From assembly GCA_001776195.1 (NCBI GenBank), contig MEZY01000038.1, positions 51,618-89,501 on the forward strand: a stretch of DNA of 37,884 nt, read 5' to 3'. Below the pieces are notes generated by a model that saw nothing but the letters and a program-made list of their open reading frames with translations, searched no databases and was not told the DNA's origin. Numbering within the stretch: the stretch's first letter is position 1; each line of letters begins with the position of its first letter. Positions 982 through 37,884 of this stretch are shown here, piece after piece. The DNA is from Candidatus Berkelbacteria bacterium RIFOXYA2_FULL_43_10 (GTDB taxonomy: Bacteria; Patescibacteriota; UBA1384; XYA2-FULL-43-10). Both the position numbers and the translations under genes were made by a program.

Positions 982-1995
982 ATGAATATTTGGGCTCGAG
1001 AGGATAAACCATTATTAGTACTTGCTCCTATGGCCGGGTATACCGACTCCGCTTTTCGCGAAATCTGCAGAGGTTTTGGCGCAGACATTGTGATGACGGA
1101 GCTGATATCGGCGGACGCGATTTATCATAACAACAAGCTAAAAGCTATAAGCTCAAAGTTGAAAATAGAGGAGTTGATTAATTTGGATAAAACGTTGCAG
1201 ATGATGAAGTTTTCTAAGAAGGAGAGGCCGATTGTGGTTCAGTTGTTTGGCAAATATCCGGAAAAGTTTGCCTTCGCGGCCAAATGGGTGGCGGAGAATA
1301 TCAAACCAGACGGAATTGATATAAATATGGGTTGTCCAGCGAGAAAAGTCGTCGGTTCCGATCACGGCGCGGCGCTTCTCAAAAATCATGCGCTTGCCTG
1401 CGAAATCGTAAAAGTGGTGCGCGAAAGCATCAAAATCCCATTATCAGTTAAAAGCAGACTGGGCTGGGAAAGCGATGACGAAATATTAGATTTCGCACCA
1501 AAATTGGTTGAGGCGGGAGCGGACGCATTGATAATACATGGGAGGACTTACAGAGACGGATTTAGGAATGGAGCAAGGTGGGAGAATATTTACAAGGTAA
1601 GACGGTACACGGTAAACAGTAAACGGTATACGGCGATCGTCGGCAATGGTGATGTCGGATCATACCAAGAAGCGATGGAGAGGGCAGAAGCTGGAAACAT
1701 CAAATTAGACGGAGTAGCAATCGGTCGAAAATCATTTGGGAATCCGATGATTTTCTCTGAGAAGCTAAAAGCCCTGCCTCGCCGGCAGGCGGGTAACAGC
1801 CAACAGCTAAAAGCTGTAGTTTTGCGTCACGCAAAACTCGTGTATGAACGAAAAAGCGATCATGGTATAATTGAGTTTAGAAAACACCTGCTAGCTTATT
1901 TGAAAGAATTCGCTGGGGCAAAGGAGTTGAGAGGCAAAGCAGTGTTGATAGAGTCGTTCAGCGATGTTGAATCAATCGTAAAACAAATAAAATAA
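982..1995 (+). CDS. dus: tRNA-dihydrouridine synthase (DusB-like)
   Basis: FMN-dependent enzyme that reduces uridine to dihydrouridine in tRNA D-loops. Seen: N-terminal LAPMAGYTDSAFR (FMN-binding start of the TIM barrel), IDINMGCPARKV with the catalytic Cys around residue 118, the SVKSRLGW strand, LIIHGRT, and IVGNGDV then GVAIGRKSFGNP near the phosphate-binding end. The length, 337 aa, is close to DusB. Three short segments (about residues 52-63, 205-218 and 261-280) are encoded by intergenic-type repeats (AAGCTAAAAGCT, CGGTAAACAGTAAACGGT, GCCGGCAGGCGGGTAAC) and have no counterpart in ordinary Dus motif order, so they look like in-frame intrusions at surface loops. Start ATG at 982 is the first in frame with the family N-terminus. 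Which tRNA position it modifies cannot be read from the sequence. Confidence 0.93.
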   Translation: MNIWAREDKPLLVLAPMAGYTDSAFREICRGFGADIVMTELISADAIYHNNKLKAISSKLKIEELINLDKTLQMMKFSKKERPIVVQLFGKYPEKFAFAAKWVAENIKPDGIDINMGCPARKVVGSDHGAALLKNHALACEIVKVVRESIKIPLSVKSRLGWESDDEILDFAPKLVEAGADALIIHGRTYRDGFRNGARWENIYKVRRYTVNSKRYTAIVGNGDVGSYQEAMERAEAGNIKLDGVAIGRKSFGNPMIFSEKLKALPRRQAGNSQQLKAVVLRHAKLVYERKSDHGIIEFRKHLLAYLKEFAGAKELRGKAVLIESFSDVESIVKQIK

Positions 1996-3341: not shown

Positions 3342-3896
3342 CATCATACATTTGTTTCCAACAGTCTGGCTGGGATTTAGGGACTTTATGGGTGGCGATG
3401 CTCTTGTCTGACATTGACGGTCCGAAAAAACTAGAGGGCCAGGTCTCATCAATCATCGACTGCTTCTCTCCTCCTTCCTGGCTGGACTGATGGAAACAAA
3501 GCGCGGACTTACGCGGACTGGACGCGGACAATGCAGAAAGGATCGTCAGTCGTTAATCGGTAACGAAACCCGTACCGATAATTGTCTGATGTCTGGCGTA
3601 ACGGGCATCGCCCGCCTGCATCCGCCAACAATCAAGTAGTTTGGGCGGAAGCAACTTCGGGCAGGTAACCGCAAAACGACAGACGAGATTTGCGAAGGAC
3701 ATGAAGAACATTGGTTGGGATTGTTGGCTTCCTAATAAGCTAAGAAGCTACGACCTAATACCTAATGATTTTCTGCCTTTCGCAACATCGTTTGCGACTG
3801 GGGATCGTGTGGTCATTGACTGCACGATGGCACATCGACAATCTGCGGGCCACACGGCCCGGCGCAAGGGCCGCAAGCCCGAGGAGGAACACGCGC

Positions 3897-5129
3897 ATGC
3901 GTAAGATCACCGTCGTACTGATGGTGCTGGCGTTCGCTGTTGCCGTTCCGGCCATGGCGTTCGTGCCGGCATTTGGCACGGGCGTCGACCTCTACTCCAC
4001 GAAGACGAACGAGGTCCACGCTGGCGTGACCCAGCTTGCCTGGGTGACGACCGAGAGTGGGAAGCCGATGGCGTTTTGGACCGGAGGATTCCTCCGTGTC
4101 CCGGCGCCGGATGATGTTGGTGTCTTTGAGGGCTTCGATTATCTGTGGGTGAACCCCACGGTGATCGGAGTCAAGGACAGGCACATAGTCGCGGTGACCT
4201 CGGAGCTAGAGGGCGCCGGGGAGTCGGCTGAGCTGAAGGAGGATGGCTGGATTCGCATCAAGATCGCCAGCCTACCCATCGGACAGCCAATGGCTATTGT
4301 GACCTCTGTCGTCAACGACCAGGGACAGCGGAAAGCCGGAGGACTGATTCCGCTTCTGGTCAAAGTCGTCTCGCTTGGCTTCGCGGACCTGAACAAGAGG
4401 ATTCGCGAGACCGATGAGGTGGCGCTCGTTTTCACCACCGTCGGCACAGGCAAGTTCATTCATCAGTTTGGCTTCTGCAGTCTTGGGAAGCCACCCGAGG
4501 AGTGGGATGGGGCAGATAGGGATCTGGCGCGTTCGGCGTGGCTCGCGGAGAAGGCGCCGACCCTCCAAGAAGCTGACGGAGGGATCGGTTACCAGCTACT
4601 CTCAACGTGGATGGCGCGGCGAGCGCAGGGTTACGGCCCGGAGTTTGCTGATGTCGAACAGGGACCGGATCCCCAAGTGGTCGTCCTGCAACAGCAGCTC
4701 GAGGAGGCACAGAAGCTCCTCGAGACCACAAAGGGCGAGAACAACGGGCTTCGCGAGCTCGTCGATCAACTTCGAAAGGCGATCGACGAGCTGACAGCGG
4801 AGCAGACCGCGGCACCTGGGGCTACATACGAGCAAGAAGTGCCACAGGGTGCGGTGGCTGGAGAAGCGCCGGAAGTGCAACCGTTCGTTGTCGAATGGCG
4901 GGATGTCAGCGGACAGCCCATTGAGGGCAAGATCTGGTTCCGCTACAGCGTCAACGGTGGCGAGTTGCACGAGAATTACGCCACGCAGTGCTCCAGTATC
5001 AACTGGCCCGGAGAGTGCGTGGGTCACGTTGTGCTGGAGTGGAAGACACGGCCTGGTCCTTGGCAGAAGGTCGAGTTTGACCGGGAGCCGGGCACGCGGG
5101 TCGTGATCACCATCCAGGAGGGCAGGTAA
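3897..5129 (+). CDS. Secreted coiled-coil protein of unknown family, GC-rich gene
   Basis: I do not recognise the family. The start is ATG 3897, chosen because GAGGAGGAAC lies just upstream and the protein then opens with a classical Sec signal peptide (MRKITVVLMVLAFAVAVPAM, cleavage likely after AMA). Product 410 aa. Residues about 22-220 look like a folded globular domain; residues about 255-300 are a predicted coiled coil (QQQLEEAQKLLETTKGEN and on); the last 80 residues look beta-rich with two Cys (ATQCSS, GECVG) that may form a disulfide outside the cell. The gene is far richer in GC than its neighbours, with G/C-ending codons, which suggests acquisition or a distinct compositional class. 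It is followed after one base by a second secreted protein gene, so the two form an operon. Confidence 0.75.
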   Translation: MRKITVVLMVLAFAVAVPAMAFVPAFGTGVDLYSTKTNEVHAGVTQLAWVTTESGKPMAFWTGGFLRVPAPDDVGVFEGFDYLWVNPTVIGVKDRHIVAVTSELEGAGESAELKEDGWIRIKIASLPIGQPMAIVTSVVNDQGQRKAGGLIPLLVKVVSLGFADLNKRIRETDEVALVFTTVGTGKFIHQFGFCSLGKPPEEWDGADRDLARSAWLAEKAPTLQEADGGIGYQLLSTWMARRAQGYGPEFADVEQGPDPQVVVLQQQLEEAQKLLETTKGENNGLRELVDQLRKAIDELTAEQTAAPGATYEQEVPQGAVAGEAPEVQPFVVEWRDVSGQPIEGKIWFRYSVNGGELHENYATQCSSINWPGECVGHVVLEWKTRPGPWQKVEFDREPGTRVVITIQEGR

Positions 5130-6081: not shown

Positions 6082-6419
6082 TGTAAAAGTCCTTGCTCGA
6101 CACGAGCAAGGCGAGCTGTGCCTCGAAGTGATCATGCTTCGGGGCCGCCCTTAGGAATCAATATAGCTATTAGCTTCTAGCTACCAGCTGTTAGGAGATT
6201 GATTTCTGAGGAGCGTTAGACAGTTGCTAGTTTCTAGTTGCTAGTTACTAGAAAAAAGCTTCGTAAGCTTAAAATCTCAGGCGCTTCTAAAGCTTCGCTA
6301 GCTTCAGTAATTAGATTGCTTCACTAATCGCTCGCAATGACATATCAGATATATTGGATAAAAAGAGTACAGAGCATTCAGTGAATTTCAGTGAGAAAAA
6401 TTCAGTGGTGGTGGGGGTA
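6082..6419. other. Spacer: 3' hairpins, then degenerate repeats
   Basis: The first 75 bases stay GC-rich and contain two hairpins (CCTTGCTC/GAGCAAGG and CCTCGAAG/CTTCGGGG). The remainder is AT-rich with AGCTATTAGCTTCTAGCTAC-type repeats, a BIME half copy near 6311-6342 and TTCAGTG repeats. No gene is seen. Confidence 0.55.
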
Positions 6420-10440: not shown

Positions 10441-10501
10441 GTGTCATTCTGAACTTGTTTCAGAATCCCATAGAGATGCTGAAATAAATTCAGCATGACA
10501 G
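10441..10501. repeat. REP/BIME-like repeat, short copy
   Basis: TGTCATTCTGAACTTGTTTC and GAGATGCTGAAATAAATTCA words form the same inverted pair as in the longer copies at 34875-35000 and 37644-37773; the middle section of those copies is missing here. Confidence 0.7.
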
Positions 10502-10599
10502 ATCAACGATTGATATGTCCCAAAAACAATAACCCGATACAATTCGACTCATTTATTAGACAGCCTAGAGCCAATTGGTCAAATTGGCGAATCTCCTGC

Positions 10600-12612: not shown

Positions 12613-12918
12613 ATGGTTGATTTTTCAAAAGCAAAGGAGCTCTACGAGCTTCAGAAACAAGCGAGGAAGATCCAAAAAGAGCTAAAGGATACGGAGATAG
12701 AGGCCAAAAGCAACAACGGCTGGGTGACTGTTGTTCTAAATGGCGAGCAACACGTGACCGATATCCAAATTGCCGAAGAGGCATTGAATCCGGAAAATAA
12801 GCGGGAGCTTGAGAAGGATCTCAAGAACACCTTTTCACAAGCAATCTCGCGTGCGCAGATGTACGCGGCGGAGAAGATGAAATCAATCGCCGGAGGATTG
12901 GGATTACCAGGAATGTAA
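12613..12918 (+). CDS. YbaB/EbfC-family nucleoid-associated protein
   Basis: Small dimeric DNA-binding protein (101 aa) thought to bind the nucleoid. Seen: N-terminal helix with KAKELYELQKQARKIQKEL, the central beta hairpin VTVVLNGEQHVTDIQI, a C-terminal helix and the Gly-rich end GGLGLPGM, all family hallmarks. The start at 12613 follows GGGGGAGTGAACGGAGTGAA. The usual partners dnaX and recR are not next to it. Confidence 0.92.
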   Translation: MVDFSKAKELYELQKQARKIQKELKDTEIEAKSNNGWVTVVLNGEQHVTDIQIAEEALNPENKRELEKDLKNTFSQAISRAQMYAAEKMKSIAGGLGLPGM

Positions 12919-13000
12919 AATAGCTGCCAGCTATTAGCTACTAGCTGTTAGGAAAGCCCGGGAAGCTAGAAGCTGAAAGCTAGAAGCTGAAAGCTGATTT
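12919..13000. repeat. AGCTAGAAGCTGAAAGCT-type degenerate repeat
   Basis: Tandem and palindromic words (AGCTATTAGCTACTAGCTG, AAGCTAGAAGCTGAAAGCT) fill the gap to pth and leave no room for a Shine-Dalgarno sequence. The same words occur inside dus and tgt coding regions. Confidence 0.65.
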
Positions 13001-15487: not shown

Positions 15488-16129
15488 ATGACAGAAGAAG
15501 AAAAAAAAGAGGAAAAAGTAGAAGAAACTGCTGAAGTAGCTGAGGAGAAATCCGAGGAAACTCAGACGCCTGAAGTTAAAGAGGATGTGAAAGAAGAGAA
15601 GTCCGAAGAAACCCCAAGTGCAGAAGTTGCAGAAGAGCCAAAAGAGGAAGATGCTAAAGTTGAGGAGAAAGTTGAAGAAGAAAAGGCACCGGAAGCTAGC
15701 GAAGCTCCTGAAGCTACAAAACCTGTTGAGAAAAAGCCTGCTCCAAGCGGTAAGTTTAAGGAATTGATTAAAGAGATCGAAAATCTATCGGTTTTAGAGC
15801 TCTCTGAGCTTGTAAAAACGCTTGAAGAGAGATTCGGCGTATCAGCCGCCGCACCTATGGCTGTGGCCGCCGCATCAGGCGGAGTGGTAGCGGGAGCGCC
15901 CGTCGAAGAGGAGAAAACTTCATACGACGTAATACTTGCATCGTCCGGAGATAAAAAGATCCAAGTTATCAAAGCTGTCCGAGAAATCAAACAGGATCTC
16001 GGTCTGAAAGAGGCCAAGGACTTGGTAGACGCTGCTCCGAAAGAGCTTTTGAAGGGTGCTAAGAAGGAAGATGCGGAAGCCGCAAAAGCGAAACTGGAAG
16101 CAGCTGGCGCAACAGTCGAACTCAAGTAA
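15488..16129 (+). CDS. rplL: Ribosomal protein bL12 with about 80-residue acidic N-terminal extension
   Basis: Stalk protein that recruits translation factors. 213 aa instead of the usual 120-130. ATG 15488 has a good ribosome-binding site (AGAAAGGA) and no ATG or plausible alternative start occurs before the canonical domain. Residues 1 to about 82 are almost entirely Glu, Lys, Ala, Val, Pro and Thr (for example [20 protein letters not shown]) with degenerate EEKxEE repeats. The canonical N-terminal dimerisation domain follows ([20 protein letters not shown], about 87-115), then an Ala/Val/Gly hinge and the C-terminal domain ([20 protein letters not shown]). The extension sits on the L10-binding, dimerising end rather than the factor-binding end, which is unexpected. 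Confidence 0.95.
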
Positions 16130-16427: not shown

Positions 16428-17729
16428 ATGCAATTTAAATTATACAAAAACAAATCAAATCTAAGGAAAGGAGAAGTTAGAACATCACACGGTGTCATAC
16501 ATTCTCCTTTTTTTATGCCTGTAGGAACGGTCGGAAGTGTAAAAGGTGTTGCGCCATGGGAGCTTGATGATCTCGGCGCAGAGATAATTCTTTCCAATAC
16601 TTATCACCTTCATCTTCGTCCTGGGGAAAAGTTGATCAAAAAACTCGGTGGTCTGCGTCAGTTTATGGGATGGGACAGACCGATTCTAACGGATTCGGGA
16701 GGATATCAAGTTTTTTCCCTCGGGAAAAAACTTGATAATAATCAAGATACAAAAAACAATAACCAAACAAATTCAAATAATCAAATATTAAATTCTAAAA
16801 AGCTAAAAAGCTACGACCTAAAACCTAAAAATTCGCTGGTGCGAATTTCATCGGACGGTGTCGAATTCCAGTCCCATCTCGATGGATCGAAGCATTTCTT
16901 CACTCCCGAAAAAGTTATTGATATACAACTTGATCTAGGGGTAGATATTCTTATGCCGCTTGATGTGTGTCCGGCGGGAGATGCAAGCTCGAAGGAGATC
17001 GAGAGGGCGGTGAAATTGACGATAGAATGGGCAAGACGATCAAAAAAAGCTTTCGAAGCTTCTGAAGCTTGCTGTCCGGGTCTGTTTGCCATTGTCCAGG
17101 GCGGACTTGATCCGAAATTAAGGGAAGAGTGCGCGCAAGAACTTATTAAGCTCGACATGGACGGATATGCTGTTGGGGGGCTAGCGGTTGATCATGAGAC
17201 AAGGGATATGTGGGGAATTGTGAAGCTCTTGGGGGAGATTCTTCCTAAAGATAAACCGAGGTACTTGATGGGCGTGGGAACGCCAGATGATATCGTCAAA
17301 GCCGTAAACTTGGGCATGGATATGTTCGACTGCGTCCTGCCGACAAGACTGGGGAGACATGGGGCCGTTTTTGTTCATAAAAACGGCAACAACCAAGAAA
17401 CAAGATACAAGATACAAACAAATTCGAATATCCAAGCTTCAAATCCTAAAAAGCCTCGCCCTACGGGCGAGGTCTCGCCTGGAAGGCGGATAAAAGCTAG
17501 TAGCTGGAAGCTAAAAGCTGATGAATATGAATTAATCAATCTTCTGAAGTCTCGATATCGTACTGATCCGGAAGTTATCGAACCCGGTTGCGGCTGTCCA
17601 GCCTGCAAGGGAGGGTTTTCCAAAGCGTATATCTCACATCTAATCCGCGAGAACGAAATTCTCGGTCTCCGCCTAGCCACAATGCATAATTTGTATTTAT
17701 ATCTAACGTTGCTAAAGGATATCGAATAA
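16428..17729 (+). CDS. tgt: Queuine tRNA-ribosyltransferase (tRNA-guanine transglycosylase)
   Basis: Exchanges guanine-34 of GUN anticodons for a 7-deazaguanine precursor of queuosine. Seen: MPVGTVGSVKGV, LSNTYHLHLRPG, catalytic LTDSGGYQVFSL (Asp around residue 89), FAIVQGGLDP, YAVGGLAV, YLMGVGTPDDI, the nucleophile region MFDCVLPTRLGRHG, and the zinc site CGCPACKGGFSKAYISHL near the C-terminus. 433 aa, about 55 more than usual. The excess is two insertions: residues about 103-134, an Asn/Gln/Lys-rich run after the GGYQVFSL motif, and about 319-365, after RLGRHGAVF, encoding repeat-derived residues. Both are encoded by AT-rich or palindromic words found between genes in this window. The catalytic and zinc residues are intact. 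Confidence 0.95.
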   Translation: MQFKLYKNKSNLRKGEVRTSHGVIHSPFFMPVGTVGSVKGVAPWELDDLGAEIILSNTYHLHLRPGEKLIKKLGGLRQFMGWDRPILTDSGGYQVFSLGKKLDNNQDTKNNNQTNSNNQILNSKKLKSYDLKPKNSLVRISSDGVEFQSHLDGSKHFFTPEKVIDIQLDLGVDILMPLDVCPAGDASSKEIERAVKLTIEWARRSKKAFEASEACCPGLFAIVQGGLDPKLREECAQELIKLDMDGYAVGGLAVDHETRDMWGIVKLLGEILPKDKPRYLMGVGTPDDIVKAVNLGMDMFDCVLPTRLGRHGAVFVHKNGNNQETRYKIQTNSNIQASNPKKPRPTGEVSPGRRIKASSWKLKADEYELINLLKSRYRTDPEVIEPGCGCPACKGGFSKAYISHLIRENEILGLRLATMHNLYLYLTLLKDIE

Positions 17730-17842
17730 TCGCTCACTTCACGATCACGTTCTTTAATCGAAAATCATACCGAAATTAAATTTCAACCATTTTTGAACTA
17801 TAACCGATAGGCGTGGAATAAAAAAATTAATTATTATGATAT

Positions 17843-17882
17843 ACTATTCGATATAAGTACGTACGTACTCAAAACAAATAGT
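17843..17882. promoter_or_regulatory. 40-bp palindromic site upstream of the HTH/Cas2-fold gene
   Basis: ACTATT (17843-17848) and AATAGT (17877-17882) flank a central GTACGTACGTAC (17857-17868), all symmetric about the same point. It overlaps the probable -10 (TATACT, 17840-17845) of the gene at 17983. A second 40-bp palindrome with the same centre and arms lies at 18728-18767. The simplest reading is an autoregulatory operator. Confidence 0.65.
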
Positions 17883-17950
17883 AGTGCATCGAGTTTATAT
17901 TGATTGATTTAAACACGAAAACAGAGATGAGAATATAGAGAGGCGCAAGG

Positions 17951-17982: not shown

Positions 17983-18612
17983 ATGATTAAAAAATCGAAG
18001 GTCGCTAAAAACTTGTGGAAAAAGACGAAAAGGGATCCGGCGAATATCAGAGGTAAGACGCTGAAAGGAAAGATAAGGAATATTTCACTTTATCTGCTTG
18101 AATCAATAATCTATGCGGTTGATGATTTAAGTAATGTGGGTAGCATTTTAGTTGATAGAAAGTCGGTATATAAAGTAGCGTACCAAGGGTGGCATGAAAA
18201 TAGTAATTTGGCTAAAAGCATTTGTAACTACTTGCAAGATTTACGATACAGAGGATTGATCGAAATAAAGAAGTCGGAATCGAGCGGGAACGATATAATT
18301 ATTATGACAAACAAAGCTAAGTTGAGAGTGGTCGATAAAATATCAGCGAAAATAAAAAGTGATAGAAAATACAGGTTTCTTTCGTTTGACGTCCCCGAGC
18401 TAATGAGGGTGAATAGAAATAGATTCCGCAGGGCGATAAAATCGATCGGTTTTAGGCAGGTTCATAAAAGTTTATGGGTGATTGATAAAAATGTTTCTGA
18501 TCTTGTTGAAATGGTAGCATATGAGTGTAAAGTCGAGAAATATGTGGCTTATATAGTATCGGAAAAATCCGATGTTGATGGAATTGTTGAGAAAATAATT
18601 GCCCGAAGGTAG
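17983..18612 (+). CDS. HTH plus Cas2-fold (PaaX-C-like) protein, probable regulator
   Basis: 209 aa. Start ATG 17983 after a perfect AAGGAGGTGT. Residues 1-30 are strongly basic. Residues about 60-115 look like a winged helix (LAKSICNYLQDLRYRGLIEI plus a beta wing). Residues about 125-209 match the ferredoxin-like fold shared by PaaX C-terminal domains and Cas2: KYRFLSFDVPE with the conserved Asp (residue 136), RFRRAIKSIGFRQVHKSLWV and a final beta strand. No cas1, other cas gene or repeat array is present, so a role in CRISPR adaptation is unlikely. PaaX-type proteins are repressors that bind palindromes, and two matching 40-bp palindromes bracket this gene. A nuclease or toxin role, as with some Cas2/VapD relatives, cannot be excluded. 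Confidence 0.75.
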   Translation: MIKKSKVAKNLWKKTKRDPANIRGKTLKGKIRNISLYLLESIIYAVDDLSNVGSILVDRKSVYKVAYQGWHENSNLAKSICNYLQDLRYRGLIEIKKSESSGNDIIIMTNKAKLRVVDKISAKIKSDRKYRFLSFDVPELMRVNRNRFRRAIKSIGFRQVHKSLWVIDKNVSDLVEMVAYECKVEKYVAYIVSEKSDVDGIVEKIIARR

Positions 18613-18984
18613 TCTCGCATCGATCGAATGATAGTGTCCTTTGTCGTCGGAGAAGCTGTAAGAGATATTATAAAAGAGAAAATAAAAATATAAAATGAAA
18701 TACAAAAAGGATTTTAACGTCAATACTACTATTCGTTTATAATACGTACGTACTATAAACGAATAGTTACAGATTCATATTTGATATGAAATAGAAATAG
18801 GTAAGTGAAGCATTCGGGGGCACTAGTGATTCGGGGGGTAATGTGGCGGAGAATACGAAAGATCGTCCCGGGATATTCGGTCATGCGGTCGCGTAAGGAA
18901 ATATCAGATTTGTGAACAAATATATTCAATTAACAGAATACTAACAAGTATTGATATAAACACAATAATATACGACATCGGGTA
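18613..18984. other. Spacer holding the second palindrome
   Basis: No convincing gene; an open stretch ATG 18628 to TAA 18691-18693 would encode only 21 residues and lacks a ribosome-binding site. Apart from the palindrome at 18728-18767 the DNA is AT-rich with a GC-rich patch around 18814-18897 of unknown nature. Confidence 0.5.
18728..18767. promoter_or_regulatory. 40-bp near-perfect palindrome downstream of the HTH/Cas2-fold gene
   Basis: ACTATTCGTTTATA (18728-18741) and TATAAACGAATAGT (18754-18767) are perfect 14-base inverted arms around TACGTACGTA; 19 of 20 positions pair. Length and centre equal those of the site at 17843-17882. It could be a second operator, a terminator-like element or an element end. 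Confidence 0.68.
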
Positions 18985-26529: not shown

Positions 26530-29055
26530 ATGTATTCATCTTCATACAATGGAGGGGAGAGCGGGAGTTTGATCTGGCTCTGGCTAATAATACTGGCAAT
26601 ACTGATCGTTGTTGCCATTTTTGTCTACCGCCGAATCCGCAAATATCTACTTCGCAAATCACAGATAGAGCTGACGCGCGACTGGGTGATGCTCAAGGTT
26701 TCGGTACCAAAAGAAGCTCATGCCTCCGAGGATGATCAGAGAAAAAATTTCCAGGAGATGTTAGCGGTTATCGAGCCATTTTTTGCAAGTTTATCGGCCT
26801 TGTTTAATTATAAATTCGATTCCCAAAGGGTTTTGGGCCAAGATCACATATCGGCAGAGATTATCGCAAAAGAGGGCAAGATTTATTTTTACATCGGCTG
26901 TCCTATTAAAATCAAGGAGATGGTTGAGAGAAATATTCTTGCGCAGTATGCAGATGCGACGGTAGAGGTTGCAGATGATTATTCGATATTCCCCAATAAA
27001 CCGCTTCAGATCGATATAATAAATGTCGCGCTTAACAAAAAGTATATATTCCCGATTAAAACTTACAAAGGGCTTGAAGAAGATCCCCTCAATGCACTTA
27101 CAAACTCAATATCGAAGTTAGGACCGGATGAATATGCCGGAATCCAGATATTAATTCGTCCGAACAATGGGGTATGGAGACTTTCGGCCGAAAAGACTGC
27201 GAAAAATATCCAACAGGGCAAACCAAATCTCTCGAGCTCCTCGAATCCGGTTCTAAAAGCGACAGATACCTTTTTTAGTCATGTGAGCAACAGCGCTAAA
27301 GATCCTAAGGAACAGGATGGCCAAAGCACGAACAATATGTATCGCCAGACGCCGATGCAGGAGGGTCAGGTAAAGCTTCTGGGCGAAAAGGTGGCTAAGC
27401 TCGGATTTGATGTCCAGATGCGTCTTATCACTGTAGCGGAAACGAAAGAGCAGGCAGGGCAAGACCTTAGGGGATTGTTGTCTTCGCTTTCGCAGTTCAA
27501 CCAGCCGGAAGGGAACGGGTTAAGGCCTAAAAAGATAAAAAAACGCCATAAATCGGAGGAGATCGCCAATTACGTTTATCGGCTCTTTGGCAGGGGCCCG
27601 CGGTTGGTATTGAACACAGAGGAGCTGGCATCAGTTTTCCACTTCCCGAATCGTTTTACCGATACTCCGAATATCGCCTGGCTTTTGGCGAAGCGGGCGG
27701 CACCGCCGCCGAATTTGCCGAATGAAGGAACGATCATCGGCAACAGTATATACCGCGGAGAGGAGAAACCGGTCAGGATCAAAGATGAAGATAGATTGCG
27801 CCACATATACATGATTGGTAAAACCGGTGTTGGTAAGACGGTACTTTTTGAGAATATGATAATGCAGGATATTCGCGAGGGTAGGGGAGTCTGCTATCTG
27901 GATCCAAACGGTGATGCGGCGGAATATATTGTGAACAGGATTCCGAAGGAGCGGGCGGAGGATGTGGTATATTTCAATCCCGCCGATATAGAGCGACCGA
28001 TGGGACTCAATATGCTGGAGTGGAAGACAAACGACCAAAAAGATTTTTTGGTCCAGGAAGCGATTCAGATGTTTTACAAGCTCTTCGATCCGGGGCAAAC
28101 CGGAATTGTCGGGCCGCAGTTCGAACACTGGATGAGAAATGCCGCATTGACTTTAATGTCGCAACCGGAGGGTGGGACGATAATTGATATTCCGCGCCTA
28201 TTTACCGATCCGGAGTTCGAGAAGGAGTGCGTAAAAAATGTCACTGATCCGGTCGTGAAAGCTTTCTGGGAGAAGCAGATGGCAAAGACATCTGACTTTC
28301 ACAAGTCGGAGATGTTAAATTATTTCACCTCGAAATTCGGTCGCTTTATGACGAACGATATGATGAGAAATATCTTGGGGCAAAACAAATCAGCTTTCGA
28401 TTTCAGAACGATAATGGATGAGAAAAAGATATTAATTTGCAATCTCTCGAAGGGAATGATAGGAGAGATAAACGCCTTTTTGCTCGGAATGATTATCGTC
28501 TCAAAAATCGCTATGGGAGCATTTTCCAGACAGAATCAACTTGAGGGAGAAAGAACTCCTTTTTATCTCTATGTTGATGAGTTTCAAAATTTTATTACTG
28601 ATGTTTTCGCGACCATACTCTCAGAGTCTAGAAAATATAAACTTTCGTTAAATATTACAAATCAGTATATCGCTCAGCTCGATGAAAAAATCCGCGACGC
28701 GGTGATCGGCAACGCCGGCACATTGGTTGCTTTTAGAATCGGAGCCGCCGATGCGGAGTTTCTGACCAAAGAATTTGATCCGTTGAAAGTCGATGATATG
28801 ACAACGATTGATAAATACAATTTTTATATTAAGATGCTTATCGATGGGGCGCCGACCAGACCGTTTAACGCGCAGAGTATTGCGCCGGATACGAATGAAA
28901 ATCCTAAATTGGGCGAAGCAGTAAAACAGCTCTCGAGACTTAAGTTCGGTCGTGCCAGGGAAGTTGTAGACGAAGAGATAAGAGAGAGATCCAAAGTTGA
29001 TGTTATAGATTTGCCGGGAATCGGCGAGGGGAATACCAAGGGGACATTCTCGTAA
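26530..29055 (+). CDS. Membrane-anchored TraG/VirB4-like (type IV secretion-type) ATPase 1
   Basis: 841 aa. A short polar start, then one transmembrane helix (residues about 14-34, LIWLWLIILAILIVVAIFVY), an N-terminal accessory domain of about 330 residues, and a RecA-like motor domain of the HerA/VirB4/TraG class. Walker A is GKTGVGKT at about 432-439; Walker B is YLYVDEFQNF at about 679-688; the sensor-like ITNQYIAQL follows. These ATPases pump DNA or protein across membranes. ATG 26530 lacks a ribosome-binding site; the in-frame TTG at 26569, with GGAGGGGAG upstream, would start just before the helix and is an equally good start. A paralogue of similar order lies at 31167. No relaxase, pilin or VirB6/8/10 homologue is visible, so a conventional conjugation system is not supported. 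Confidence 0.9.
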   Translation: MYSSSYNGGESGSLIWLWLIILAILIVVAIFVYRRIRKYLLRKSQIELTRDWVMLKVSVPKEAHASEDDQRKNFQEMLAVIEPFFASLSALFNYKFDSQRVLGQDHISAEIIAKEGKIYFYIGCPIKIKEMVERNILAQYADATVEVADDYSIFPNKPLQIDIINVALNKKYIFPIKTYKGLEEDPLNALTNSISKLGPDEYAGIQILIRPNNGVWRLSAEKTAKNIQQGKPNLSSSSNPVLKATDTFFSHVSNSAKDPKEQDGQSTNNMYRQTPMQEGQVKLLGEKVAKLGFDVQMRLITVAETKEQAGQDLRGLLSSLSQFNQPEGNGLRPKKIKKRHKSEEIANYVYRLFGRGPRLVLNTEELASVFHFPNRFTDTPNIAWLLAKRAAPPPNLPNEGTIIGNSIYRGEEKPVRIKDEDRLRHIYMIGKTGVGKTVLFENMIMQDIREGRGVCYLDPNGDAAEYIVNRIPKERAEDVVYFNPADIERPMGLNMLEWKTNDQKDFLVQEAIQMFYKLFDPGQTGIVGPQFEHWMRNAALTLMSQPEGGTIIDIPRLFTDPEFEKECVKNVTDPVVKAFWEKQMAKTSDFHKSEMLNYFTSKFGRFMTNDMMRNILGQNKSAFDFRTIMDEKKILICNLSKGMIGEINAFLLGMIIVSKIAMGAFSRQNQLEGERTPFYLYVDEFQNFITDVFATILSESRKYKLSLNITNQYIAQLDEKIRDAVIGNAGTLVAFRIGAADAEFLTKEFDPLKVDDMTTIDKYNFYIKMLIDGAPTRPFNAQSIAPDTNENPKLGEAVKQLSRLKFGRAREVVDEEIRERSKVDVIDLPGIGEGNTKGTFS

Positions 29056-31166: not shown

Positions 31167-34100
31167 ATGGAAATTGTATTTGTACTAGTTCTTGCAGTCT
31201 TGGTCTTGGGTGGGATATATTCGATATCCCAAAGTTTTAAGATCTGGCAAAATAAGAGAGCGGAGGAGTGGCTTTCCGGACAAAGCTATACGGTGATCCG
31301 AGTTGATGTTCCAAGGAACAATGAGAAGGCACCCTTAGCTGCCGAACAGATGTTCGCCTCTATACACGGGATATACGCCGAAAGCGCATTATTTCAAAAC
31401 CATATCTCTTTCGAGATTATTGCAAGAGACAGGTACATTCAGTTCTATGTTTTTATGCCAAAGCACTTGAAAGATTTCATAGAGGGCCAGATCTATGCCC
31501 AGTACCCTACGGTGGAGATAAACGAAGTAGACGACTATGCCCAAGGAGAGCTGGCCCTAAGTCAAAACTATGCATGCGGAGATTTGACGACAACTAAACC
31601 GGATGTCTATCCGATAAAATTGTTCTCTGATTTCGAAGTTGACCCGATATCCGGCATTACCTCTGTGATGTCAAAGCTTGCCCCGGGAGAGCAAGTATGG
31701 CTTCAGGTGGTTATCCGGCCGGTAGGCGATGAGTGGCAAGAGCGGGGGAATCAGATGATCTCGAATATTCGATCAGGTAAAAGCGGAGGTGTTTCTGCGA
31801 TCTCGAAGTCAGTTATGAAAACGATATCAAATGGGGCGAAAATGTTTGTTGCACAAGCGATAAACCCGGGGGCGGAAATCGCGACATCTGAAGAAAAAGT
31901 TCAGCTTTCCGGTACGGTAGAGGAAGCTCTAAAAGGGATTGAATTTAAGATTATGAAGCTTGGGTATCAGACAAAGATCAGAATGGTAGCGGTAGCTTCC
32001 GATCCGATGTCGGCAAAAATCAAACTTGAAAATGTTGCCGCCACATTTAAGCAATTCAATACAACTAACGCTAACGGTTTTAAAATTGCAAATCTATCGA
32101 TAAATGACAAAAACGCCTTGGAGAGTTACACGGCGCGACTTTTTGAGGACGATGGCAATGTTTTAAATATCTCTGAACTGGCGTCGATATACCACTTTCC
32201 GCATCAAACGGTAGAGACGCCGAACATTGTATGGTCGGGGGCGAAGAAGGCAGAGCCACCGGCGCACTTGCCTCTTTCGGAGAGTACGCCATCGGACGAA
32301 CTAACCATTTTGGGAGAGACGACATTTAGAAATACATATAAGCTTTTTGGAATTAAGCTTGACGACAGGAGAAGGCACATCTATGTAGTCGGTAAGTCGG
32401 GTGTTGGAAAATCGGTACTGCTTGAAAATATGGCGATTAATGATCTCCTCAAAGGCAGGGGAGTAATTGTGGTTGATCCTCACGGAGAATTCGCGGATAA
32501 AGTGCTCTCGTGTATTCCAGAGGAGAGGGTCGATGATGTAGTCGTATTCGATCCGGCCGATAGGGGATTCCCGATAGCTTTTAACCTGCTTGAGCACGTT
32601 GAAGATGATTTCAAGGGTATGGTCGCTTCCGGCTTCGTTGGGATATTCAAAAAAATATTCGGCCACTCTTGGGGTCCGCGCCTTGAGCATATACTACGAA
32701 ATACCGTTTTAGCGCTACTGGATTATCCGAACTCAACAATGCTCGATATTCCGAGGATGCTTACGGAAAATCACTTTCGAGACAAGGTAGTTGGCTATGT
32801 AAAAGACCCGGTGATTAAAGATTTCTGGCAGTTAGAGTTCGCACAATACGATAGTAAATTCAGAACAGAAGCGGTGTCTCCGATTTTGAATAAAATCGGG
32901 CAGTTTTTGGCTACTGCTACCATAAGAAATATTGTTGGCCAACCGCACTCGACTTTGGATTTGAGAGAGCTTATGGACAACAAAAAAATTATGGTAGTGA
33001 ACCTTTCTCGCGGAAAAATCGGCGAAGACAACTCGGCGCTTTTGGGCGCGATGATGATCACAAAGATTCAGCTAGCTGCTATGAGCAGAGCAGATGTGAC
33101 TGTGGATAAGCGACCGGATTGCTTTCTCTATGTTGATGAGTTCCAAAATTTTGCCACCGAATCTTTCGCGGTTATTCTTTCGGAAGCAAGAAAGTATTGC
33201 TTGGATTTGACTATAGCAAACCAGTATATTGCCCAGATGCCGGAGGAGGTGAGGGACGCGGTTTTTGGCAACGCAGGTACCATAGTTTCCTTTAGGGTTG
33301 GTGGCAACGACGCGGATTTTTTGGTAAAGGAATTTGAGCCGGTCTTTGAGGGCAACGATCTGGTTAATCTGGACAAATATAATATCTATGTAAAACTGCT
33401 CATAGACGGAATATCATCGCCGGCTTTTTCGGCGAGAACGTTGCCGCCGGTAGGGGAGCTGACCGGAAATGTTCAGAAGATAATAGATCAATCGAGAAAG
33501 AAATATGCCAAGCCCAGGGCGGAGATTGAACAGAGGATTGCGGAAAGATCTGAAATGGAGCAGAGAGAAGCGACGGAAGAGGCGGAGGCATTTAAATCGG
33601 GTGGTCTTGGGGCTGTGCTGACTATGAAAAAAGACAAGGGGTTTGAGGTCAACGAGAGGTTGGTTGATTTTGCAAATAAATCCAACGAGCAAAAGAGGGG
33701 AGTGGGGGAGTCAAAAGTTAAAAGCGAAAAGTTAAAAGTGGAAAGCAAAGTGGATAAAAAAGAGGACGAGGGACAACAATCAAAGAAGACCGAAGAGCCC
33801 CAGAAAAAGGAAGAGGAGAATATCACAGAACTGGATACGGTGGTAGAGGCGAAAGCCGAGCCGAAATTGAAAGAGTGGGTGGAGAAACCGGAAGAGAAAA
33901 ATAATGATGAAAGCGGGGGAGTAGTAGCTTCTCCGGCTGACAAGGCTGTTGTCTCTGACGAATCCAGTGAAACGAAAGAGAGAAAGCCTCGGATTTTTCG
34001 ATACCAAAATATTATCGGGGATAAAATTTATAAAGAGCAGACAGCGCGCGGTAATGTCAAGTGGTATGTTGGAGATGGAATCGATCAAGATGAACTTATT

Positions 34101-34382
34101 GAAAGCGGAGTTGAGATTGATGAAAATGGAAAAAAAATGATCGAACTCGCTCGCAAGGCGGGGGACACGACGAGAATAAGTCAAAATGTAAAAATCAAAG
34201 TTCAAAATAACAGTGGAAACCATCAAGAAGTTAAAAAAGACAATGATGACCCCAGGGCAGCTGGCAAAGCAGCGGGCGATAAAGGTAGTGATGATACCGA
34301 TGAAGACGGCGATACCTCTCGTGGCAATGATAATGCAAGTTCCTTAAACGAGGGCGAAGCAGTCAAGATCGATGATGTCTAA
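31167..34382 (+). CDS. Membrane-anchored TraG/VirB4-like ATPase 2 with long charged C-terminal tail
   Basis: 1071 aa, paralogous to the product of 26530-29055. N-terminal transmembrane helix at residues about 2-20 (IVFVLVLAVLVLGGIYSI), accessory domain to about residue 380, then the motor: Walker A GKSGVGKS at about 408-415, VVDPHGEFADKV, Walker B YLYVDEFQNF at about 653-662, and IANQYIAQMPEEVRDAVFGN. From about residue 790 comes a 280-residue tail, Glu/Lys-rich and low complexity, which ATPase 1 lacks; within it IFRYQNIIGDKIYKEQTARG at about 945-965 looks like a short folded element. Two tail segments (bases 33712-33770 and 34178-34215) are encoded by repeat words found between genes. Start ATG 31167 follows GACGGGGTA. 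Confidence 0.9.
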   Translation: MEIVFVLVLAVLVLGGIYSISQSFKIWQNKRAEEWLSGQSYTVIRVDVPRNNEKAPLAAEQMFASIHGIYAESALFQNHISFEIIARDRYIQFYVFMPKHLKDFIEGQIYAQYPTVEINEVDDYAQGELALSQNYACGDLTTTKPDVYPIKLFSDFEVDPISGITSVMSKLAPGEQVWLQVVIRPVGDEWQERGNQMISNIRSGKSGGVSAISKSVMKTISNGAKMFVAQAINPGAEIATSEEKVQLSGTVEEALKGIEFKIMKLGYQTKIRMVAVASDPMSAKIKLENVAATFKQFNTTNANGFKIANLSINDKNALESYTARLFEDDGNVLNISELASIYHFPHQTVETPNIVWSGAKKAEPPAHLPLSESTPSDELTILGETTFRNTYKLFGIKLDDRRRHIYVVGKSGVGKSVLLENMAINDLLKGRGVIVVDPHGEFADKVLSCIPEERVDDVVVFDPADRGFPIAFNLLEHVEDDFKGMVASGFVGIFKKIFGHSWGPRLEHILRNTVLALLDYPNSTMLDIPRMLTENHFRDKVVGYVKDPVIKDFWQLEFAQYDSKFRTEAVSPILNKIGQFLATATIRNIVGQPHSTLDLRELMDNKKIMVVNLSRGKIGEDNSALLGAMMITKIQLAAMSRADVTVDKRPDCFLYVDEFQNFATESFAVILSEARKYCLDLTIANQYIAQMPEEVRDAVFGNAGTIVSFRVGGNDADFLVKEFEPVFEGNDLVNLDKYNIYVKLLIDGISSPAFSARTLPPVGELTGNVQKIIDQSRKKYAKPRAEIEQRIAERSEMEQREATEEAEAFKSGGLGAVLTMKKDKGFEVNERLVDFANKSNEQKRGVGESKVKSEKLKVESKVDKKEDEGQQSKKTEEPQKKEEENITELDTVVEAKAEPKLKEWVEKPEEKNNDESGGVVASPADKAVVSDESSETKERKPRIFRYQNIIGDKIYKEQTARGNVKWYVGDGIDQDELIESGVEIDENGKKMIELARKAGDTTRISQNVKIKVQNNSGNHQEVKKDNDDPRAAGKAAGDKGSDDTDEDGDTSRGNDNASSLNEGEAVKIDDV

Positions 34383-34417
34383 CAGCTGAAAGCTAGATGC
34401 TGAGCATATGTGCGCCT

Positions 34418-34874: not shown

Positions 34875-35000
34875 GAATGTAAACCTCTTTCAGTGTCATT
34901 CTGAACTTGTTTCAGAATCCCAAAACATTCGTGTCTAGGATCGAGATGCTGAAATAAATTCAGCATGACAGAAATCGGGCATAGGTTTTCGGATCCACGG
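34875..35000. repeat. REP/BIME-like element, full copy
   Basis: Nearly identical to 37644-37773 over about 115 bases: TGTCATTCTGAACTTGTTTC, then GTGTCTAGGATCGAGATGCT, then AATAAATTCAGCATGACAGA. The inner inverted arms CATTCTGAA/TTCAGCATG form a hairpin. Confidence 0.8.
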
Positions 35001-37643: not shown

Positions 37644-37773
37644 CGTGAATGTAAAAGCCTCTTTCAGTGTCATTCTGAACTTGTTTCAGAATCCCAAAAC
37701 AATTGTGTCTAGGATCGAGATGCTGAAATAAATTCAGCATGACAGAAATCAGGCATAGGTTTTTACATTCACG
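37644..37773. repeat. REP/BIME-like element, full copy with outer inverted arms
   Basis: The core equals 34875-35000. Here the outer ends also pair: CGTGAATGTAAAAGCCT at the left and, inverted, AGGTTTTTACATTCACG at the right, giving a complete nested palindrome of about 130 bp directly upstream of the secD promoter. Confidence 0.8.
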
Positions 37774-37884
37774 GAACTGGCTAACGATTTTTACACTATT
37801 ACCTTGAATTACGAAATATAAATTACAAACTGGTTTAAGCAACCATCAAAAATAGGTTTTGTTTAAATCTGTTTGTACTTTAAC
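37774..37884. other. Window end, no supported gene
   Basis: AT-rich. The last 39 bases are open on the minus strand (13 codons including a TGA stop at 37848-37846), which might be the 3' end of a gene beyond the window, but this is too short to support. Confidence 0.3.

Follow-up and report, generated by a model that had tools for sequence, protein, structure and literature searches.

The tgt gene in the DNA analyzed here contains two in-frame insertions, which, judging from the sequence and a structure model, are probably translated, disordered loops of short genomic repeats that were copied into the gene after the lineage split from its sister genus. All coordinates given for the window refer to the whole stretch analyzed, 37,884 nt of contig MEZY01000038.1, and ORFs were called with a greedy rule. 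The genes for ribosomal proteins L10 and L7/L12 lie upstream of the tgt ORF, and the closest named relatives by Tgt were Candidatus Berkelbacteria MAGs. The L7/L12 gene itself (15488-16129) encodes an acidic and repetitive N-terminal extension of approximately 85 residues. The features of tgt are as follows.

16428 to 17729, forward strand: tgt, tRNA-guanine(34) transglycosylase with both insertions, 433 aa (NCBIfam TIGR00430, E=1.5e-122).
16725 to 16829, forward strand: insertion 1, residues 100-134 (KKLDNNQ...SYDLKPK); counterpart residues are absent in Z. mobilis Tgt, and pLDDT is <50 at 111-133.
16737 to 16793, forward strand: A-rich arm of insertion 1, 76% identical to 17388-17454; similar intergenic copies are imperfect palindromes of ~130 nt.
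16794 to 16832, forward strand: junction and heptamer tail of insertion 1, TCTAAAAAGCTAAAAAGCTACGACCTAAAACCTAAAAAT = SKKLKSYDLKPKN, recognized by the copy counts of junction and tail.
17376 to 17534, forward strand: insertion 2, residues 317-369; it stands for 4 residues of Z. mobilis Tgt, and pLDDT is <50 at 325-342 and 347-360.
17388 to 17447, forward strand: A-rich arm of insertion 2, recognized by its likeness to insertion 1 and by genome blastn matches of the 67-nt module.
17451 to 17489, forward strand: GC-rich palindromic middle module of insertion 2, KPRPTGEVSPGRR, in the same frame in recG and xerC; the insert folds with hairpins (z=-4.4).
17490 to 17521, forward strand: AGCTRNN heptamer array closing insertion 2 (family D2, exact pattern match).

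The original prediction placed two repeat-derived insertions in tgt between intact catalytic and zinc motifs. Both parts were borne out, and the extents were refined to residues ~100-134 and 317-369. The Tgt model was compared with Z. mobilis Tgt (1ozm; Foldseek TM-score 0.90, target-normalised). Residues 99 and 135 both align with Z. mobilis residue 114, with nothing between them, and residues 317-369 stand in place of Z. mobilis residues 298-301; sites 1 and 2 thus have 0 and 4 counterpart residues, respectively, in the solved Tgts of the PDB comparison. The motifs around the inserts (TDSGG with D89; FDCVLPTR with D298 and D301; CxCxxC with C388, C390 and C393; H420) showed little or no variation among 41 relatives. 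In the AlphaFold2 model, the core mostly exceeded a pLDDT of 90 and values below 50 were confined to the three insert segments listed above, in agreement with predicted disordered loops. The two insertions resemble each other, with 76% identity over 67 nt (family D10; the 16737-16793 region versus 17388-17454). Insertion 2 additionally contains the GC-rich palindromic module CCTCGCCCTACGGGCGAGG, which is also found in frame in recG and xerC, whereas insertion 1 consists of an arm with a heptamer tail, folds weakly (z -1.8) and is not itself a palindrome. Examples of peptides inside the insertions are LKSYDLKP and GILNQVQDDDPK.

The insertions are built from modules in a fixed order, which starts with an A-rich arm (CAAGATACAAGATACAAACAAATTC...), may continue with a palindromic module, and closes with CCTAAAAAGCTA and AGCTRNN/ACCTAAA heptamers. 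The claim that these words resemble intergenic repeats held, with genome matches far above chance. The 67-nt module was found at 25 places in the genome at E<=0.1 (blastn), the heptamer array pattern gave 108 matches versus 20 for the backward pattern, and the tail AAGCTACGACCTAAAACCT ("SYDLKP") had 21 copies at <=1 mismatch versus 0 in the backward control. The tail reads "KLKSYDLKP" in protein, and the junction motif occurred in 16 sense copies within ORFs, all in one phase. Intergenic copies of the A-rich arm sit within palindromes that are imperfect and span 130-150 nt, with z values from about -3.4 to -4.6. The optional palindromes are REP-like; the GILNQVQDD module, which reads HPELDSGS on the opposite strand, fits the CGTC type, and the remaining ones are unclassified. 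Modules are also nested: a GC-rich palindrome interrupts the tail between SY and DLKP in recG, valS and tsaD, as KKLKSY[LPEDATRQQSSSLGGLQAG]DLKP, and a second palindrome interrupts the A-rich arm in recG (KIQDT[PLRQGYAGRA]RYKQIQN). The same words had been expected in nearby gaps, where they were indeed seen at 3731-3763, 6165-6194, 12917-13000 and 34379-34403. Intergenic repeats in the window include the following.

3731 to 3763, forward strand: tail copy just upstream of the ORF at 3765-5129.
10441 to 10502, no strand assigned: REP pair of CGTC type, TGTC-ATTCTGAA-CTTGT-TTCAGAAT-CCCA, related to the in-gene module GILNQVQDD.
12917 to 13000, forward strand: heptamer arrays upstream of pth.
34881 to 35000, no strand assigned: second REP pair, 93% identical to 37655-37774.

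Repeats overall covered 24% of intergenic versus 1.35% of coding bases (blastn self-comparison); therefore, repeats have no general preference for genes, and among them only the composite and the tail are common in genes. Other repetitive features were seen in the window. A Cas2-like PaaX_M ORF (17983-18612) just after tgt is flanked by inverted 43-nt arms (17842-17885 and 18725-18767) that are 81% complementary and each palindromic around TACGTACGTA; these arms may be autoregulator operators, or the whole may be a small mobile unit. Two large ORFs (26530-29055 and 31167-34382), probably paralogues, have a 73-nt stretch in common at 75% identity.

The view centered on tgt stood but had to be extended. 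A protein search with Tgt reached other ORFs by way of the inserts, and insertions of the same kind were found in frame in approximately 20 other conserved genes; the inserts were read in ORFs, which were named where a domain model matched. There were five inserts in recG, at least five in tsaD, three in valS, and two each in xerC/D and uppP. Further invaded genes were ppsA, ksgA, miaA, queA, rnpA, ychF, pcrA, polA, murD and priA, as well as an nrdG-type activase, a radical-SAM-like gene, a glycosyltransferase, a methyltransferase-like gene and dusB, the last of which lies in the window.

982 to 1995, forward strand: dusB-like ORF (TIGR00737, E=6e-67) with in-frame heptamer stretches at ~1131-1155 and 1777-1816, peptides NNKLKAISSKLKI and PRRQAGNSQQLKAVV.

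The alignment of TsaD to the PDB breaks into pieces at the inserts, as that of Tgt does. In AlphaFold2 models, most TsaD inserts had a pLDDT below 50, and low pLDDT was confined to inserts and loops in both proteins. Loci L111-L128 had been selected by their match to repeats and the signature motifs were picked after inspecting sequences. In 328 kb chosen irrespective of repeats, the insert library matched 16 of 264 CDS of >=100 aa, versus 0 with the reversed library; we estimate that about 6% of the genes of the lineage carry inserts. In addition, a KLKSYYLKP module copy was seen in the leader of a pilin-like ORF (L144:2858-4207, reverse strand; ...KKG followed by MYLPVIMLASVIF), and the repeat may therefore form part of a prepilin leader.

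Sequence is shared from gene to gene. A 117-nt composite including GC-rich palindromes is common to recG and valS at 95.7% identity and in the same frame, 86 columns are common to tgt and ppsA at 84%, and the A-rich arm with the REP is common to polA, rnpA and recG. These matches bear on the possibility that the loops grew in place through replication slippage and that their likeness to intergenic DNA reflects a shared mutational bias. The A-rich and heptamer stretches have simple, degenerate sequences, and CPR Tgt loops are somewhat long even without recognizable repeats, as slippage would allow. However, the long recG/valS match, the module order fixed across many genes, the nesting, and the tail copies against an empty backward control largely refute slippage, which we regard as unlikely.

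We also examined how the inserts are oriented. The polA-type composite matched 40 places across the genome; 30 matches could be placed, 21 of them in ORFs, where 20 were sense and 19 in one frame. Twenty-four of the 28 inserts examined were open in just one of six frames, and the inserts were polar (N+Q 18% versus 7%; hydrophobic residues 17% versus 31%), so that survival accounts for the constant orientation and frame; an antisense A-rich arm would read T-rich and hydrophobic. A frame-specific insertion mechanism was dropped, since survival alone suffices. Composite matches covering two modules were every one within an ORF (multi- versus single-module, Fisher p=0.03). It is conceivable, although we hold this only tentatively, that the A-rich/REP/heptamer composite represents a separate element that resides in genes, spreads between them as one unit and is adapted to one open frame, with multi-module forms almost only in genes. 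If this reading is true, conserved genes rather than intergenic DNA would be the habitat of the composite, because its multi-module units lie almost only inside genes.

Next, we compared relatives. The original prediction held the insertions to be specific to the lineage rather than ancestral, and the alignments agreed: insert residues varied among related Tgts and were missing from solved ones. The tail "KLKSYDLKP" is largely private to the lineage, since 57 of 60 related genomes were without it at <=1 mismatch; the other three had 18 matches (G022, in a similar ACCTACA array), 3 (G001) and 1 (G025). The site-1 loop measured 11-16 residues in 58 non-CPR Tgts versus 10-74 in 55 CPR Tgts. Loops of >=20 residues at site 1 occurred in 36 of 55 CPR versus 0 of 58 non-CPR Tgts (p=7e-16), and the site-2 loop differed likewise (p=5e-7); in these tests, sequences that are related count as independent data, and a few of the genomes could be present in both relative sets. 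At least 10 of 51 relatives had different but recognizable repeat peptides at the Tgt sites, by a peptide list made after inspection. In Tgt of sister genus G001, site 2 and a third site hold G001's own repeats, which recur in its genome; 70 kb of the G022 genome gave no further copies of the repeats in the G022 tgt. TsaD of G001-G010 and others has different repeats in the same four or five loops. Similarly, a methyltransferase-like gene (L132:16200-17741 and L150:9057-10625) is invaded at the same sites in sister genera G000 and G001 by different repeats, and the G000 copy is interrupted by a masked stretch. Recurrent use of loops by unrelated repeat families spans a class.

The repeated use of the same loops, together with the uniformly polar composition, would also be expected if the inserts had been recruited for a function, such as interaction tails or solubility linkers, and kept by positive selection. 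We consider this quite improbable: the sequence at a given site varies from genome to genome, the host proteins are functionally unrelated, and the inserts are predicted to be disordered. Recurrence requires no function, because tolerance alone explains it.

Another alternative is removal of the segments, either ahead of protein synthesis, by RNA splicing or translational bypass, or afterwards. Insertion 1 comes immediately after a stretch of the Tgt active site, and additional residues might seem costly there. However, across the 1226 codons of the 28 inserts not one stop was seen, whereas dinucleotide-preserving shuffles predict 72, which argues against removal, because a removed segment would have no reason to stay open. 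Insert lengths vary while the frame is always kept, and an Rfam search of the window gave no intron or other RNA family at gathering thresholds. Removal is therefore highly improbable. The source genome is a 58-contig draft of 0.96 Mb, 92.5% complete and with masked stretches, yet assembly error or pseudogenes are hardly credible with approximately 20 housekeeping genes, all open and with motifs intact, and with the pattern also present in independently assembled relatives. Ancestral Tgt loops, although the baseline loops of CPR Tgts exceed those of other bacteria, are just as implausible and are refuted for the repeat-derived part, since the sequences differ in every relative, the tail module is absent from nearly all of them, and solved Tgts have no residues at the site.

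Given insertion of short genomic repeats, copying would take place at the DNA level and in any orientation, probably from single-stranded hairpins by a REP/RAYT-like or replication-based route. Selection would then purge copies unless the gene stays open, the added sequence is polar and the loop is tolerant. A filled loop would be a safe harbour, and later elements would land beside or inside earlier ones, which may be why composites are nested and sites recur. The unrelated repeats in the same loops of relatives suggest that genes maintain sites where DNA that would otherwise be harmful can land safely. The recurrent sites would show, as a natural map, which loops of essential enzymes tolerate insertions and would give intergenic DNA a route to become protein, and they call for caution in the annotation and structure modelling of Patescibacteria. 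The genome also holds a REP-associated tyrosine transposase (L111:389-961, reverse strand; NF047646) with GTAG-like hairpins on both sides, upstream of the invaded recG. This RAYT was the sole REP-associated transposase found, and a link between it and the in-gene modules was rejected, as its flanks carry GTAG-like repeats and not the modules; in this respect the modules differ from RAYT-mobilised GTAG REPs.

To our knowledge, in-frame repeats in conserved bacterial genes are familiar mainly from Rickettsia and from scattered REP cases. Searches of the open-licence literature on insertions in Patescibacteria or Berkelbacteria and on intragenic REPs turned up no account of a case such as this one. 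Rickettsia palindromic elements (RPEs) lie between genes and in frame in conserved genes, in 19 ORFs, and the product of an RPE-bearing gmk is active after translation (PMC2229807, a review; Ogata et al. 2000). The predicted likeness to RPEs stood for behaviour, as repeats here are likewise both intergenic and in frame within conserved genes; membership in an RPE family is not supported. RPEs are 105-146-nt palindromes with terminal inverted repeats, whereas the site-1 insertion is one arm with a heptamer tail and is not palindromic as a whole; here, composites are nested, come from several families and reside in a Patescibacterium. The insert peptides had no match among the NCBIfam and Pfam domain models up to E=10.

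CGTC REPs, described alongside GTAG-tagged ones, are defined by a tag, stem, loop and CCA-type tail and include intragenic in-frame copies, and RPE-4 and RPE-6 are CGTC repeats (PMC3733652). By the definition in that survey (TGTC/CGTC tag, 8-9-bp stem starting with AT, 4-5-nt loop, CCA-type tail, head-to-head dimers), the GILNQVQDD/HPELDSGS module fits this type, with a TGTC tag, an AT-starting 8-bp stem, a 5-nt loop, a CCA-type tail and paired copies (window 10442-10470). The survey lists CGTC REPs in five phyla, Patescibacteria not among them, and in the present case the REP makes up just the central module of a larger composite with conserved order. The TAACTGA heptamer repeats of Beggiatoaceae form intergenic arrays (PMC4679880) of a 7-nt unit, as here, but of another word, and here the AGCTRNN/ACCTAAA heptamers also occur in coding sequence. 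In Nematomorpha mitochondria, palindromes embedded in coding genes (PMC6649704) likewise leave protein genes unbroken but are perfect long inverted repeats, unrelated in sequence and setting. Taken together, the sequence comparisons suggest that the system behaves like RPEs but is probably not one of them, and that it is a variant of intragenic REP/RPE insertion. This uncultured candidate-phyla lineage adds a dense case of in-frame repeats, with several per gene in recG and tsaD. Compared with RPEs and intragenic REPs, it differs in having composites that draw on several families and are nested, in how densely these occupy genes, and in sites that recur across a class.
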